Made by a program: the position numbers and the translations under genes
Part shown: positions 4,148-24,972 of the stretch, piece after piece
How positions within the stretch are numbered: the first letter of the stretch is position 1
Layout of the letters: each line of letters begins with the position of its first letter
The notes under the pieces: model-generated
Database searches by the model: none
Seen by the model: the letters and a program-made list of their open reading frames with translations, nothing else
Told to the model about the DNA's origin: nothing
Source: Rhodothermia bacterium
Lineage (GTDB): Bacteria; Bacteroidota; Rhodothermia; Rhodothermales; JAAAOL01
Direction of reading: 5' to 3'
NCBI GenBank assembly: GCA_030428385.1
Contig: JAUIDY010000052.1
Coordinates: forward strand, 1 to 39,927
DNA: 39,927 bases

Positions 4148-7100
4148 TAAAACGTCGCGCTGAGTTGCAGGCGGACGGTATGGATCGTCGGCGCGTCGGC
4201 GGGGGCACGGCCATTGTAGGCCAGCGTGGCGCGCAAGAGCCGGGTGAAGCGGTATTGCCCATCGAGGCTCCATAGAAACGAGGTGCCGGGGCCACGGCCA
4301 TCGGTGAGTTCGAACTCGGCCAGCCCCTCCGCTTCGCCGCTCAGTTCTACCAGGGCCGTCTCGAAGCGAGCCGCCAGTTGGAAACGGCGCGCCTGACTAA
4401 GGCGGGCTTCAAAAGGCACCTTGATCAGTTGGGCCTGGCGGTTCGCCTGCTGGTCTGTTTTGCGGGCAAACGAAAGCCGTGAGGTCAGTTGGAGCGCCCG
4501 CCACGGGCGAAACGACACTTCAGGCTCCACGGTCACCCCTTCGATGTCGAACGTGCGGGAGGCGAACTGCTCGCTCGCCGTCCGGTTTTGCTCCCACGAG
4601 GCCAGCAGCCGCAACCCCAGCCGGAGCGATGGGCGGTAACTCCCATCCATACGCCACTGATTGGCATAGCGACTTTCTTCCCCCGCCGCCAATTCGCTAA
4701 GGCTGCGCACCTGACTGAACGAGAAGTCGAGCCCATACCGCGAGGCGTTGCGAAAGAGTTGGAGGTCTTGCCCGATGCGGTACCGTCCGTTGAGGGTGTT
4801 GAGCGGACTGCGGAAGCGGTTGAGACGCAGGAGGTAGATCTGTGCGATTTCTGGGTCTCGGCTTTTTTCCACCACCTCCAACGTCGTGCGGGTGGTGACG
4901 TTGGAGAACCGCTTTTTCCACCCCTCGGCGTTGCGCCAGATGCGCGACGGGTCGAGCGTAAACCGAAGCCGTGCCTGCACGCTGATCACCGAAGTCAACG
5001 AGTCGGAGGGGATAAACGTGCGGACATAAGTCCCTTCGTCTGGGGTGCGTTCGGGGATAAACTCATCGAGTTGAATAACGGAATCGCTGTTGCGGTCTTC
5101 CCACACAAACTGGCCCAGTTCCGGTCCGGTACGGACGTAGATTTCTTGCAACTCCGGCGTGCGTTCGGTGAGGGCTTCATAAAACCAATTTACATCCACG
5201 GCACTGCGCCAGGGCCGCAGGCTGCCGTCCCACTTCATCACCAGCGACTCGCTGTTTTCGCGCTGCTCCTCCACGCGAAACATCTCCGTAAACGTCCGTA
5301 CCCGATAGCCGACACTACCATTGGTTTTAAATGTGGCGCGCGGCGTCCAAACAAACTGCGTTTGCACCGTTCGGGCGCTGGATGCCTCCTCCATCACCCC
5401 ATCTAGTGGTAGCTGCTCCTCCCTCCATTCGAGCGACCCCGTGAGCTCCAATCGCTCGGTCAGCCAGGTGACGCCAGGGCGTAGTTCCACAAACGAGAGC
5501 GAACGCTGGCTCAGGCTGTCCGTATTGATAATTTGCTGTCGTCTATTTTCATGTTCTACTTCAAGTCGTGGCGTTAACCTCCCTTCCAGCATGGGTTGTG
5601 CCAGAACACCAAGCTGCCGAAACCATCGCCCGTCTTCGTTTACAGTTCCTCCCAACCGAGCCAGCGAGTCGAGGCTGGCGATGTGCTCGACGCGATAATC
5701 AATCCGTGGGAATCCGACTTCTGCCAGATGCACCTGTAAGGCCCTACGATCACCTTGGAACGCATGGCCCAGCCGAATCCGTCCCACTTCCCCTTCGACA
5801 TGACTTAGCGTCGTTGGCGCATAACGCACACGCCCCTCATCAACGGTTTCATCAAACGCCTGCACCGTCCCCCCCGAAGTCCCAAGCCCCGCCGTGCCCA
5901 GGTTCCAGCGCCGCGCAAACTCCACCGGGCGCGTGCGGTCGAACGAGGTAAAGTTCTGCCCGGCGAACCGTCGGCGGTACTCCGCTTCTAGCGTCCCGAG
6001 GCCATGATCGGAAATGACAAGGGGGATAGGATCGAGCCGGACGCCCGCCAGATACGCATCGCCTCGGTTGTTATTGTCGCCTTGCTCGGAGAAGCGGTTG
6101 ACGTCGTTATATGATCCCGCCCACTCCCCAAATACCTCCACGCCGCGGACGGGGGCGAAGCCACCCCGCAGGTCCAGCAGCCGCTGCTGCGCGGGCTGGG
6201 GCAAAATCCGAACCGGTGCGTATTCGCCCAACCCTTTCCCCCGGTACTCATAGCGAATCCCGTTGACCTCGCGACCTACGCGCACGTAGTCGCCGAGCCC
6301 CGACCCAAGGCGGGTAAAGCGCACCCGAAACACCGGCGTTCCTTCCGGCGGGGCAGCGCTGAGGGCCACAAAAATGGTATCGCTGTCGATCACCTCCCGG
6401 ATGTATTGCACGTAGGGCGCTTCTGGGTCAAAAACCACCTGCTCGGCTCCGCTGCGAACCGCCCGTTCATCTCCGGCATTGGCCAGCAGCAATGAGTCAG
6501 CAGGAGTCAGCCCGAATTCCTCATTCAGCTGACGGGCATCAGCTTCACGAAGGAACGTGACGCCAAAACGCGCACGGGCAGTGCCATCGTCCCGTTGCCA
6601 GAGTTGCGCTTCGCCTTGCGAGGCCAACAGCGTGCGGGTGAATTGGTTGGTGGTGTACTGAAACTCAATCGTGATGCGGCTTTCCTCGGTGATGAGTTGA
6701 TTTGACGTAAAGGTCAACTCCCCCGTCGCATAGTCGATGACGTAGTCGTTGGCTTCGCCGCGCGTGAGCGTCAGCCCGTTGAGATACACCGCCTCGGACC
6801 CCGGCACGACGATAATAAACTGCTCTCCGTTTAATCCTTCGAGGCGATACGGCCCCTGCACCCCATCGAGCGCAACGATGTCTTGCGAGCGAAAGGTGCC
6901 TCGTGCCGTAGCTCCGGCTACGGTCATGCGTCCGCCACCAAAAACGGACGCTTCAGGATTGGGTACATCGCCGAACACGGTAATTCCTTGCAGCTTGCGG
7001 TTGAACCGGGCGAACTCGCTGCCGCCGAGTTGAAGGTCGAAGTCGCCGAGTTGCGCCGTCCCCTGTGGCGCGGCAATTTCGATAAAGACCCGGTCGAATT

Positions 7101-21050: not shown

Positions 21051-21089
21051 AAAAAAGCCCGGTGCCCCACCAGCACCAGGCTTTTTTTT
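21051..21089. terminator. Strong bidirectional Rho-independent terminator
   Basis: GGTGC (21061-21065) pairs with GCACC (21073-21077). Below a single mismatch, GCC (21057-21059) pairs with GGC (21079-21081). The stem is flanked by A6 (21051-21056) and T8 (21082-21089), so it terminates on both strands. It lies 25 bases after the Bax-inhibitor gene stop. Confidence 0.85.
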
Positions 21090-21450: not shown

Positions 21451-22578
21451 ATGTCACTCTGGAAAAGCATTAAAGGGGAACTCATCGACATCATCGAATG
21501 GCTCGATGACTCGCATAGTTCACTCGTCTGGCGCTTCCCCCGCCACGATAATGAAATCAAAAATGGCGCAAAGCTAGTCGTCCGCGAAGGACAGTCGGCC
21601 GTCTTTGTGAATGAAGGCCAACTCGCCGATGTCTTTCCGCCCGGCACCTACACGCTCGAAACCGCCAACCTCCCCATTCTCTCCACCCTCAAAGGCTGGA
21701 AGTACGGATTCGACAGCCCCTTTAAGGCGGAAGTCTATTTCGTATCCACGCGCCAGTTTACGGACTTAAAATGGGGCACCAAAAACCCGGTGATGCTGCG
21801 CGACCCCGAGTTTGGCCCGGTTCGTATCCGCGCCTTCGGGACGTACGCGATGCGCGCCAAAGACCCGGCTGACATTATCCGCGAGATTGTGGGCACCAAT
21901 GCCCATTTCACCACCGACGACATCACCAACCAGTTGCGTAACCTCGTCGTCTCGCGTTTTGTGGACAACGTGGCCGAGAGCAAGCTGGCGGTGCTGGACC
22001 TCGCAGCCAACTACGACGAGTTTGGCTCCCAGGTCAAAGAAAAAATCCAGCCTGAGTTTGAAGCCTACGGCCTCGAACTCACCACGCTCCTGATAGAGAA
22101 CATCTCCCTCCCACCCGCCGTCGAGGAAGCACTGGACAAACGCACCAGCATGGGCGTCATCGGCAATCTGGGCGCGTACACGCAGTTTCAGGCCGCCAAC
22201 GCCATGGAGCAGGCCGCGCAGAATCCGGGCGGCATGGCCTCGGGCGGCATGGGCATGGGCATGGGCTTTGCCATGGCCAACCAAATGGGGCAAGCGATGG
22301 CCCAGCCTGCGCAGCCCTTCAACCCGGCAGCAACGGGAGCCACCCCCCCTCCGCCTCCTGCCCCGGTGGCGTACCACGTGGCGGTGAATGGACAAACCAC
22401 GGGCCCCTACGACTTGAATACGCTGCGCCAGCAAGCTGCTCAGGGACAGTTTACGCCCGACTCTGTGGTGTGGAAGCAAGGGATGAGCGGCTGGATCCGC
22501 GCGGGTGACGTGACCGAGTTGCAGCAGGTGTTTCAGGCGATGCCGCCACCGCCGCCGCCGCCTCCTCCGGCCCCTTAA
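21451..22578 (+). CDS. SPFH (band 7)-domain protein with C-terminal GYF_2 domain and poly-proline tail
   Basis: 375 residues. Residues about 15-235 are an SPFH-type domain of the YdjI/virion-core kind: LVWRFPRHDNEIKNGAKLVV at the start, GQSAVFVNEGQLADVFPPGTYTL, WGTKNPVMLRDPEFG, VRIRAFGTYAMRAKDPADI, and KIQPEFEAYGLELTTLLIENISLPP. A low-complexity Gly/Met/Gln linker (about 255-300) leads to a GYF_2 domain (about 308-355; VNGQTTGPYDLNTLRQQA, VWKQGMSGWIRAGDV). The tail is ten consecutive prolines. SPFH proteins form large membrane-associated scaffolds; GYF_2 domains bind proline-rich partners. There is no transmembrane helix. The next gene, a zinc-ribbon membrane protein, is the usual partner: in Bacillus subtilis ydjI and ydjG sit in the pspA operon. 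No pspA homolog is present here. Confidence 0.85.
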   Translation: MSLWKSIKGELIDIIEWLDDSHSSLVWRFPRHDNEIKNGAKLVVREGQSAVFVNEGQLADVFPPGTYTLETANLPILSTLKGWKYGFDSPFKAEVYFVSTRQFTDLKWGTKNPVMLRDPEFGPVRIRAFGTYAMRAKDPADIIREIVGTNAHFTTDDITNQLRNLVVSRFVDNVAESKLAVLDLAANYDEFGSQVKEKIQPEFEAYGLELTTLLIENISLPPAVEEALDKRTSMGVIGNLGAYTQFQAANAMEQAAQNPGGMASGGMGMGMGFAMANQMGQAMAQPAQPFNPAATGATPPPPPAPVAYHVAVNGQTTGPYDLNTLRQQAAQGQFTPDSVVWKQGMSGWIRAGDVTELQQVFQAMPPPPPPPPPAP

Positions 22579-22597
22579 TCCGTCTTTTCTCGTTATA

Positions 22598-22715
22598 AGA
22601 AGCAGGCACCTTTGTCGCGTTATCCCATGACCGGTGTACTGTCGTGTTTTCCGGCGTGTAGTGGTTCTTCAAACGCTACACGCCGGACTTTTACCCATCT
22701 TGGGTGCCTGCTTCT
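22598..22715. other. Large nested palindrome: 13-bp outer and 12-bp inner perfect stems
   Basis: The outer arms are 22598-22610 (AGAAGCAGGCACC) and 22703-22715, perfectly complementary over 13 bases. Inside them, 22650-22661 (TCCGGCGTGTAG) and 22676-22687 are perfectly complementary over 12 bases, with a 14-base loop. The left side has a 39-base unpaired stretch. It fills the gap between the SPFH gene and the zinc-ribbon gene. It could be a terminator/attenuator with read-through, a processed RNA, or a repeat-type insertion (BIME/MITE-like). I did not see a second copy in this window, and there is no long U-tract after the outer arm. Confidence 0.6.
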
Positions 22716-22756
22716 ACCGCTCGTGAAATGATCTCCCTCCCCAACCCCCTGTAAAC

Positions 22757-23836
22757 ATGGAACCCGTTAAGTTCCCCTGCAAATCGTGTGGCGCAACGCT
22801 GCACTTCGCCCCCGGCCAGGACGCCCTCGTTTGCCCTTTCTGCGGCGCTGCCAATGACATGCCGGAAGTGGATGTGGCCGTCCAGGAAGAAGCCCTCCAA
22901 GAACTCGACTTCCATGCATACCTCTCCGAACTTGCTTCTGGAAGTGAGACGGTGGTGGTTACCGTTGTCAAATGCTCAAACTGTGCCGCAGAGACCACCT
23001 TCGACCCCAATATTACGGCGGATGAATGTGCATTTTGTGGGACAGCCCTGATTGGCGGTCAACACACCGAGCGGATCATCAAACCGAAGGCCCTGCTCCC
23101 GTTTAAAATCGCCGACCGGGAGGCCCATGAGCTGTTTCGAAAATGGCTGGAAGGGCTCTGGTTCGCCCCGAACTCCCTGAAGCAATACGCCCACCGCGAT
23201 GAAAAACTGGATGGGGTATACCTGCCCCACTGGACCTTCGACTCCGATACCGCTACCGACTGGCGGGGGCAACGCGGCGAATATTATTACGTGACAGAAA
23301 CATACACCGTAGATGGTAAAACCCAGACCCGGCAGGTTCGCAAAACCCGGTGGTATTCACGCAGCGGCCACCTACATCACTTTTTTGATGATGTGTTGGT
23401 GTGTGCGACCAACTCGCTACCGCGTAAGTACATGACCTTGCTTGAACCCTGGGACTTAGAAGCCCTCGTGCCCTATGACGAAGCCTACCTGAGTGGGTTT
23501 AAGTCTGAGGCCTATTCCGTAGAGTTGGAACCGGGATGGGGCCATGCCAAAAATCGCATCGACTCCGACATCGACGTCATGATTCGACAACAGATCGGCG
23601 GCGACGAGCAGCGAATCACTTGGAAAAACTCGAACTACAACGACATCACGTTCAAACATATCCTGCTGCCGGTGTGGATCAGCGCCTATCGCTACAATGA
23701 CAAGGTATTTCGTTTTATTGTGAACGCCCGGACCGGCAAGGTGCAAGGCGAACGCCCGTGGAGTTGGGTTAAAATTGCCGGGGTCGTCATCTTGGCAATC
23801 CTTATTCTGGCCCTTATTATCTACTTCACGAAGTAG
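22757..23836 (+). CDS. Zinc-ribbon protein with C-terminal membrane anchor (YdjG-like partner of SPFH protein)
   Basis: 359 residues. Two zinc ribbons at the N-terminus: CKSC (8-11) with CPFC (29-32), then CSNC (75-78) with CAFC (93-96), four Cys pairs in all. The middle is a mixed region of about 220 residues with many aromatic and charged residues (VYLPHWTFDSDTATDW; YYYVTETYTVDG; HHFFDDVLV; SRSGHLHH), characteristic of a family whose members are often annotated loosely as primosomal-protein-like. It ends with one hydrophobic helix (about 337-356; WVKIAGVVILAILILALIIYF), so most of the protein faces the cytosol. It follows the SPFH gene after the nested palindrome, in the same direction. This pairing is known from the pspA-ydjG-ydjH-ydjI operon of Bacillus subtilis, a membrane stress module. 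Role here is inferred by that association. Confidence 0.83.
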   Translation: MEPVKFPCKSCGATLHFAPGQDALVCPFCGAANDMPEVDVAVQEEALQELDFHAYLSELASGSETVVVTVVKCSNCAAETTFDPNITADECAFCGTALIGGQHTERIIKPKALLPFKIADREAHELFRKWLEGLWFAPNSLKQYAHRDEKLDGVYLPHWTFDSDTATDWRGQRGEYYYVTETYTVDGKTQTRQVRKTRWYSRSGHLHHFFDDVLVCATNSLPRKYMTLLEPWDLEALVPYDEAYLSGFKSEAYSVELEPGWGHAKNRIDSDIDVMIRQQIGGDEQRITWKNSNYNDITFKHILLPVWISAYRYNDKVFRFIVNARTGKVQGERPWSWVKIAGVVILAILILALIIYFTK

Positions 23837-23856: not shown

Positions 23857-24972
23857 ATGCGCCTCAAATCGATTCAGAGTGGTTTTTTTATCACCCTGCT
23901 GGTCGTCGTAACGGTTGCTTTCCTCGCCCTGATCCGGGACTTTTTGCAGCCCGTTTTCTGGGCGGCCGTCCTGGCCGTCTTGTTTTACCCCATCCAGAAT
24001 CGCTGGCTTCGGGTAGTACGAGACCGACGAACGCTGGCCTCTCTCCTCACGACGTTGACAATCTTTTTCATCGTCATCCTCCCGTTAACGTTTGTTGGAG
24101 CAGCCGTATCGAACGAGGCGGTGAATCTGTACCAGCGCATTGAGTCGGGCGACATTGACCTTCAGGCGCTGATACAAAAACTGACGGCCATGTTGCCCGT
24201 CGCACAGGAAACACTAAACGACTACGGCATCGACCTGAACCAGCTAAAAGAACAGCTCTCGGGTGCCGCTGTCACGACGAGTCAGTTTCTGGCCTCACAG
24301 GCGGTGGATTTTGGGCAGAACGCCTTGCGTTTTGCGGCCTACTTCTTCCTCATGCTCTACTTCCTGTTCTTCTTCCTGCGGGATGGACCGAACTGGCTGG
24401 TGCACATTATGCGGGCGCTGCCGCTAGGTGACGACCGCGAGCAGATGCTGGTGGACAAGTTTGCCAACGTCTCGCGTGCAACGATCAAAGGAACCCTGGT
24501 GGTGGGCGTGGTGCAAGGCGCGCTGGGCGGGCTCATCTTCTGGATCCTGGGTATCGGTGCCCCCGTATTCTGGGGCGTTATTATGACGGTGCTCTCGCTG
24601 CTGCCGGCTATTGGGGCCGCCCTCGTATGGCTACCCGCCGCCATCATTTTAATGGTGAGCGGACAGGTAGTGAAAGGCATTATCCTGCTTCTTGTTGGCG
24701 GCTTGCTTATCGGGATGGTGGATAACATCCTGCGCCCAATACTCGTGGGGCGCGACACCAAGATGCCCGACGTGCTCATTCTACTTGCTACATTGGGCGG
24801 TCTGGCCATATATGGGATTTCAGGGTTTGTCATTGGACCCATTATCGCCGCGCTCTTTTTGGCGATCTGGCAGATGTTCGAAGCCGAATATGCGACGTTG
24901 GATGATCCGCCCGTGAACGACAGCCCCCCACCTTCGGACAAGCCCCCTCCAGGTTCATGGGCGACCCTCTAA
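23857..24972 (+). CDS. AI-2E (PerM/UPF0118) family membrane transporter
   Basis: 371 residues with about 8 hydrophobic helices. Helices 1-2 are FFITLLVVVTVAFLALI and FWAAVLAVLFYPIQNRW; then TTLTIFFIVILPLTFVGAAV. A long amphipathic middle (about 85-150) comes before the rest (AAYFFLMLYFLFFFLRDGPNW; VQGALGGLIFWILGIGAPVFWG; LPAIGAALVWLPAAIILM; LLVGGLLIGMVDNILRPIL; LATLGGLAIYGISGFVIGPIIAALFLAIWQMF). The family signature RPILVGRDTKMPDVLILLATLGGL, with an Asn-Arg-Pro core, is present. Members include PerM-type permeases, Na+/H+ antiporters and the AI-2 exporter TqsA; the substrate cannot be read from the sequence. It ends with a Pro/Ser-rich cytosolic tail. It starts 20 bases after the zinc-ribbon gene, so it may share that transcript. 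Confidence 0.87.
   Translation: MRLKSIQSGFFITLLVVVTVAFLALIRDFLQPVFWAAVLAVLFYPIQNRWLRVVRDRRTLASLLTTLTIFFIVILPLTFVGAAVSNEAVNLYQRIESGDIDLQALIQKLTAMLPVAQETLNDYGIDLNQLKEQLSGAAVTTSQFLASQAVDFGQNALRFAAYFFLMLYFLFFFLRDGPNWLVHIMRALPLGDDREQMLVDKFANVSRATIKGTLVVGVVQGALGGLIFWILGIGAPVFWGVIMTVLSLLPAIGAALVWLPAAIILMVSGQVVKGIILLLVGGLLIGMVDNILRPILVGRDTKMPDVLILLATLGGLAIYGISGFVIGPIIAALFLAIWQMFEAEYATLDDPPVNDSPPPSDKPPPGSWATL

Follow-up and report, generated by a model that had tools for sequence, protein, structure and literature searches.

A GYF domain between two proline motifs in SPFH proteins encoded beside a zinc-ribbon membrane protein

The SPFH-GYF gene and its zinc-ribbon partner

We analysed a stretch of 39,927 nucleotides from a Rhodothermia bacterium, referred to below as the window, which makes up the whole of contig C13 in an assembly of 6.19 Mb. 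Two neighbouring genes in the window encode a protein that combines an SPFH domain with a GYF_2 domain (hereafter SPFH-GYF) and a zinc-ribbon protein with a predicted C-terminal membrane anchor (hereafter the partner). Across relatives of the first protein, the GYF domain was found to be bracketed by two proline motifs of one form, PPP[L/I/V/P]P. Both open reading frames (ORFs) lie where the original prediction, made from the sequence alone, had placed them, and the domains that it had read from them were recovered, as PF13421 and GYF_2 in the first protein, and as zinc ribbons with eight invariant cysteines and a membrane helix in the second. The features of the two genes, with residues given as amino acids (aa) and model confidence as the predicted local distance difference test (pLDDT), are as follows.

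21451..22578, forward strand: SPFH-GYF gene, 375 aa, YdjI-like (ORF and Pfam)
21526..22158, forward strand: SPFH (Band_7_1) domain, aa 26-236 (PF13421 match; model alignment to SPFH structures)
22345..22359, forward strand: upstream proline motif, aa 299-303, PPPPP here and mostly PPP[L/V/I/P]P in relatives (conservation over 96 proteins)
22372..22521, forward strand: GYF_2 domain, aa 308-357 (PF14237; W341 and W348 invariant in 96 proteins)
22543..22575, forward strand: C-terminal proline motif, aa 365-375, nine prolines and AP here, mostly PPP[L/I/P]P in relatives (conservation over 96 proteins)
22757..23836, forward strand: zinc-ribbon partner, predicted to be C-terminally membrane-anchored, 359 aa, YdjG-like (ORF; model pLDDT 93.9)
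22778..22843, forward strand: zinc ribbon 1 of the partner (C8, C11, C26, C29), invariant in 49 sequences
22973..23038, forward strand: zinc ribbon 2 of the partner (C73, C76, C91, C94), invariant in 49 sequences
23765..23830, forward strand: C-terminal membrane helix of the partner, aa 337-358 (hydropathy; helix in the model)

Pfam assigned PF13421 to residues 26-236 of the SPFH-GYF protein (E 1.5e-106, 355 bits against a cut-off of 24) and PF14237, GYF_2, to residues 308-357 (E 5.4e-20, 71.3 bits against a cut-off of 25.8), and the linker joining the two domains is rich in Gly, Met and Ala. No membrane-spanning segment was found in this protein, whose top 19-residue Kyte-Doolittle mean is 0.86. 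Its C-terminus, MPPPPPPPPPAP, has nine consecutive prolines followed by Ala and Pro, and the ten-proline tail that had been described is correct as a count of ten and incorrect as an unbroken run. The structure model of the whole protein has a modest mean pLDDT of 68.4; its SPFH part matches flotillin, stomatin, prohibitin and HflK/C structures with Z up to 13.1. The genome encodes one PF13421 protein, two GYF_2 proteins and EF-P.

The eight cysteines of the partner form four CxxC pairs, which are invariant across 49 aligned homologs. Against Pfam the partner reached the cut-off of no family, with weak zinc-ribbon matches and a match to PepSY (E 0.071) below its cut-off, and a defence function was rejected, PADLOC giving a single weak match, PDC-S64, at 21.7 bits. 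A hydrophobic segment covers aa 340-358 with a mean Kyte-Doolittle value of 2.97, and the model (mean pLDDT 93.9) shows a helix at 337-358 and a beta-rich middle. For this middle domain Foldseek returned nothing at E up to 0.001, which does not in itself point to a new fold. The best VIA-align match was the C-terminal domain of YpeB (5boi), which was weak (Z 4.8, 66 residues, root-mean-square deviation (rmsd) 3.5) and agrees with Ravi et al., who in a section of their paper describe YdjG as two zinc ribbons, a YpeB-related domain and a transmembrane segment (PMC11237479).

The SPFH-GYF and partner genes form a real and widely spread pair. In a survey of 195 genomes of the class, with the genome of the window included, full-length SPFH-GYF homologs were found in 12 genomes, and three more genomes matched in the GYF part alone. 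The partner gene was found in eight, all of them within the 12, and the two genes are adjacent in five (G000, G032, G051, G137 and G152). A scan of named genomes by an alignment of 12 sequences confirmed at least 568 relatives, the best 80 of which were kept as named loci; the best match to the SPFH-GYF protein was in Rubricoccaceae bacterium Ww533. The partner is encoded downstream in 54 of the 76 named loci that were informative (within 400 bases in 51 and within 1 kb in 3; four further loci were too short), which bears out the predicted genomic link of the pair. One named relative that carries the pair is Methylotuvimicrobium buryatense 5G (L067). A wider set of 100 loci, 95 of which were analysed (five were left out owing to overlapping ORFs), has the partner at position +1 in 54 of the 86 with room for it. 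Four loci (L045, L047, L055 and L056) carry another zinc-ribbon protein of about 230 aa (Zn_ribbon_TFIIB) at +1 in the partner's stead, as scanned in L047 and inferred for the other three from clustering and the neighbour list.

By record title, the relatives belong to Bacteroidetes, Planctomycetes, Gamma- and Alphaproteobacteria, desulfobacteria, Acidobacteria, Aminicenantes, Spirochaetales and others. Matches to the SPFH protein were also found in 23 plasmid records and in seven phage records, none of the latter covering more than 80% of the query, and matches to the partner in 12 plasmid records. Plasmid contexts were inspected at six places.

Proline motifs and exchange of modules at the C-terminus

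To describe the flanking motifs, we compared 96 proteins, of which 78 came from the named loci, 12 from the class and six more from the phylum; 95 of these are distinct, as the contig of G137 is that of L044. Among the 80 named loci a GYF domain is present in 78. The picked ORF ends early in L119, one of the two remaining loci, and in the other, a Tannerella locus (L090, 3024-4154), the SPFH ORF stops ahead of the GYF part though the match continues, which may reflect a sequencing error or a real truncation. After the GYF domain, 77 of the 78 loci have a PP.?P motif, with the core PPPLP in 50 and PPPIP in 14, and another occurs within 25 residues before the domain in 76 of the 78. As a control, the last 30 residues of non-overlapping ORFs of at least 200 aa in the same loci contained PP.?P in 11 of 558 cases. 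The GYF domain and the tail, which the original prediction had taken for an addition special to this locus, are therefore the usual form among the closest named relatives, and the idea that the tail is unique to this genome is ruled out.

Both motifs are conserved position by position. In the upstream motif P299 is kept in 89, P300 in 94, P301 in 96 and P303 in 87 of the 96 proteins, and position 302 is occupied by L in 46, V in 15, P in 12 and I in 12. The downstream motif keeps P365 in all 96, P366 in 95, P367 in 94 and P369 in 95, with L in 57, I in 16 and P in 13 at position 368. By a regular-expression count over the 95 distinct proteins, 88 carry the upstream motif, 93 the downstream motif and 87 the two together. 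Within the final 25 residues, the longest stretch of prolines measures three in 79 of the 95 and nine in four, one of which is the protein of the window. As a run of three is typical and the form of the motif is shared, the nine-proline run is, judged from these alignments, a lengthened PPPLP motif. Within the domain, W341 and W348 are invariant in the 96 proteins, position 308 is aromatic in 90 and position 320 in 82, and a pocket role of these residues may be proposed by analogy. Together, the composition of this region suggests that the GYF domain may bind its own flanking motifs, the tail included; with the motif present twice and conserved, this idea has more support than could be known when it was first proposed for the tail.

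The best match of the GYF profile in the PDB was GltJ (7z3c_A, E 8e-13), and the profile also matched Tic56 (E 4e-4 and 7.5e-4), GIGYF2 (E 0.05) and GIGYF1 (E 0.2). GltJ (AglX), a gliding motility protein in NCBIfam and PDB, resembles the protein of the window in its GYF domain and is otherwise a different protein, likened here by name and match alone. The NCBIfam GltJ model matched aa 295-374 far below its cut-off, and no functional paper on the GltJ GYF domain was found in the literature searched. Tic56, from the chloroplast, and GIGYF1/2 are eukaryotic. Among the papers listed, all from outside the subscription literature, none describes bacterial SPFH proteins that carry a GYF domain; the parts of PMC7159879 that treat GYF and SPFH concern other systems, and the further papers checked for GYF do not mention it.

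Comparison within the same phylum outside the class, for which 37 of 48 PF13421 matches above 78 bits were fetched, showed that the proline tail goes together with the GYF domain: the tail was present in all six GYF-bearing proteins and in none of the 31 GYF-less ones. At the place of the GYF module, SHOCT was found at or over its cut-off in all nine GYF-less proteins that were scanned, and the remaining ones looked SHOCT-like by eye, 11 of the 31 being recognised by a regular expression. These proteins thus share the SPFH domain with the protein of the window and carry SHOCT instead of the GYF domain and proline motifs. PF13421 is named as the most common companion of SHOCT in a passage of PMC3581485. 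Five of the six GYF loci of the phylum have the partner downstream and L160 does not; at this locus (4677-5960) a divergent SPFH domain (PF13421, 76.8 bits) is joined to GYF_2 and a PPPPPPP tail, and it looks like a separate fusion.

Relation to YdjI/YdjG and possible modes of assembly

In excerpts of PMC8581546, YdjI of B. subtilis is described as a self-interacting protein without membrane anchor and with a zinc finger near the C-terminus, whose localisation needs YdjG/H and which is itself needed for PspA foci. The pair in the window resembles YdjI/YdjG in having a PF13421 SPFH protein without membrane segment and a partner that combines a membrane helix with two zinc ribbons. It differs in that a GYF_2 domain between two PPP[L/I/V/P]P motifs replaces the C-terminal zinc finger and, unlike in pspA-ydjGHI, the SPFH gene stands first with neither pspA nor a TPM gene (ydjH) adjoining. 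The three TPM matches of the genome fall on contigs C212 and C5, none on C13. Because a C-terminal zinc finger and neighbouring pspA and TPM genes were looked for and found absent, the pair is a variant of YdjI/YdjG and not a member of the pspA-operon type.

The likeness to ydjI and ydjG that had been noticed in the original prediction held up through a locus of Enterococcus gallinarum, not through the B. subtilis sequences themselves. A partner homolog of this species (WP_003127086.1, E 7e-26, 25.4% identity) is encoded between SPFH and TPM genes. The locus lies on a plasmid (L188, 4751-7928) and comprises an SPFH protein with a C-terminal double zinc ribbon (below the Pfam cut-off), the YdjG homolog and the TPM gene, with no pspA among the genes shown. 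Since the GYF domain with its proline motifs, SHOCT and the zinc ribbon all occur at the same place, they may be three unrelated short C-terminal modules that do one job.

Our preferred explanation, to which we give an even chance, is that the pair forms a membrane scaffold of the YdjI/YdjG type whose subunits are cross-linked by GYF domains that bind the PPP[L/I/V/P]P motifs of neighbouring subunits. B. subtilis YdjI depends on YdjG and YdjH; by analogy, the SPFH protein would be tethered to the inner side of the membrane through the zinc-ribbon protein that is encoded downstream, itself probably anchored through the helix at its extreme C-terminus. The SPFH domains would assemble as in stomatins and flotillins, and each GYF domain may then bind, between chains, the motifs that flank the GYF domains of adjacent subunits. 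With one receptor and two ligands per chain, the assembly could be cross-linked by weak, reversible contacts. More tentatively, such proteins may represent a self-cross-linking device that is found across bacterial phyla, in which the GYF domain on an SPFH scaffold stands between two copies of its ligand, PPP[L/I/V/P]P, the module being swappable with SHOCT or a zinc ribbon, and which would form reversible membrane networks with no PspA nearby. The pattern described here offers a direct way into the question of how YdjI-like SPFH proteins of bacteria assemble and are targeted to the membrane.

Several observations weigh against the cross-linked scaffold. The GYF domains of GIGYF2 bind a proline motif, PPG-Phi, according to a portion of PMC12249416, which speaks for the scaffold, but the motif of the SPFH-GYF protein does not contain the Gly of this eukaryotic ligand. 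The AlphaFold2 (AF2) confidence of the tail is middling (pLDDT 59-63, with 30-39 for the linker) and is no proof of docking. When the authors who described SHOCT tested whether it acts in oligomerisation, the outcome was negative, as stated in a section of PMC3581485. A self-ligand is also no general property of GYF_2 proteins: among non-SPFH proteins with this domain from the genome of the window and the phylum (25 loci), 10 of 34 domain hits had PP.?P in the 40 residues that follow the domain. All ten were among the 21 hits that keep the W of position 341, compared with none of the 13 hits without it (by-eye count; Fisher P 0.005), which speaks weakly for the scaffold, the comparison being confounded by relatedness, as the 13 W-less hits come from few genomes and are mutually similar. 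Finally, the linkage of the two genes is incomplete. The partner lies on a separate contig in three genomes of one family (G008, G012 and G022), was not found by the class search in G043, G102, G111 and G135, and does not lie downstream in 22 of the 76 informative named loci, which all have at least 1.4 kb of sequence there. Two of the 31 GYF-less loci of the phylum (L132 and L133) have a partner above 200 bits, and seven more have weak matches of 16-73 bits.

The original prediction had noticed no pspA homolog in the window and had proposed a search for one elsewhere in the genome. PF04012 had no match on C13, and the wider search found PspA on contig C95 (70.7 bits against a cut-off of 33.9), together with a match on C224 below the cut-off (22.5 bits); a loss of the gene from the genome is ruled out. 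PspA was detected in 186 of the 195 class genomes, including all 12 with full-length SPFH-GYF. As PspA is encoded on C95 and is nearly universal in the class, with or without the pair, it does not follow from its absence in the window that the module works without it. On C95 (L034, 13262-14687) a shorter PspA-like gene comes after that of PspA, at a locus separate from the SPFH pair, and the same layout was observed in G012 (L184, 4636-5930).

One possibility that we take seriously, while holding it to be somewhat doubtful, is that the pair recruits PspA to the membrane as in Bacillus subtilis, which would be compatible with the cross-linked scaffold. The presence of PspA in the genome and in all 12 class genomes with SPFH-GYF, together with the need for YdjI in the formation of PspA foci (as given in part of PMC8581546), would agree with such a role. 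However, a gene that is present in 186 genomes, compared with 12 for SPFH-GYF, says little by its presence, and a three-sequence profile that included E. coli PspA (which an earlier two-sequence version had missed) found no PspA near the genes in the window, in 11 class loci (L023-L033) or in the 80 named loci. We further scanned the families of 91 chosen neighbours, which were encoded on the same strand at positions -1, +1 or +2 and were 110-900 aa long, with the partner, TelA and XpaC excluded. PF04012 was not among the families common to at least two of these neighbours that were listed (25 of 140), a scan that PspA beside a single locus could escape. TelA lies upstream at 18 of the 80 named loci, most of which are titled as Alpha- or Gammaproteobacteria.

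We consider it rather unlikely that the motifs regulate and do not assemble, the tail being a lid that the GYF domain of the same chain binds in cis and that stress would displace, so that the domain could take proline-rich clients. Both motifs lie only a few residues from the domain, and in the predicted model residues 301-375, which include the tail, align with Tic56 (chain 7vcf_Q; Z 9.3 and rmsd 4.1 over 75 residues), with higher confidence for the tail than for the linker. This alignment does not reveal the place of the tail on the domain, however, and two near-identical motifs per domain exceed what a lid would need.

Similarly improbable in our view is a role of the GYF domain and the PPPLP motifs as adaptors for other proteins, such as the partner or other GYF or PPPLP proteins, with no self-binding. 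The genome does encode a second GYF_2 protein, of 334 aa (L005, 1264-2268, contig C241), and other bacterial GYF_2 proteins occur with and without PP motifs, which would suit adaptors. The absence of the tail from all 31 GYF-less proteins argues against this explanation, as a separate adaptor role would not demand it. The second GYF_2 protein itself has no PPxP within 40 residues after its domain. That the proline runs are mere low-complexity linkers is very improbable, for although the stretches on both sides of the GYF domain are of low complexity, the motifs have fixed positions across phyla, with P365 kept in 96 of 96 proteins, a hydrophobic fourth residue preferred and 11 of 558 control ORFs carrying the like.

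Neighbouring genes and possible intergenic hairpins

Downstream of the partner, an AI-2E transporter gene (23857-24972) begins after a gap of 20 bases, and this short gap suggests that the gene is co-transcribed with the pair here. A place for it as a conserved third member is not supported, since the PF01594 protein of the window was the sole one among the 91 chosen neighbours. Upstream genes in the named loci include TelA in 18 of 80 and XpaC (PF10112) in 16 of 80, at loci that belong by title to Alpha- and Gammaproteobacteria, plus one titled 'Proteobacteria' and one 'bacterium'. A proteobacterial order of XpaC, TelA, SPFH-GYF and zinc-ribbon partner was observed in L061, L085, L088, L089, L107 and others. 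TelA was rejected as a general partner, being found in none of the 195 class genomes, that of the window among them.

Between the two genes of the pair lies one further feature, which we do not claim as part of the system.

22598..22715, no strand assigned: nested inverted repeats between the two genes, a possible RNA hairpin (fold against shuffles)

These repeats fold far better than shuffled sequences (z -7.27) and occur as a single copy in the genome. Rfam gave no match in the window, and the matching gap of the closest relative, L023, folds no better than shuffles, which led us to reject the hairpin as a conserved element. Among 17 intergenic stretches that were folded, several are stable (L067, L079 and L048), and their sequences appear unrelated by eye. 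A terminator-like hairpin is located at 21051-21087, upstream of the SPFH gene and 3' of the Bax1-I gene.

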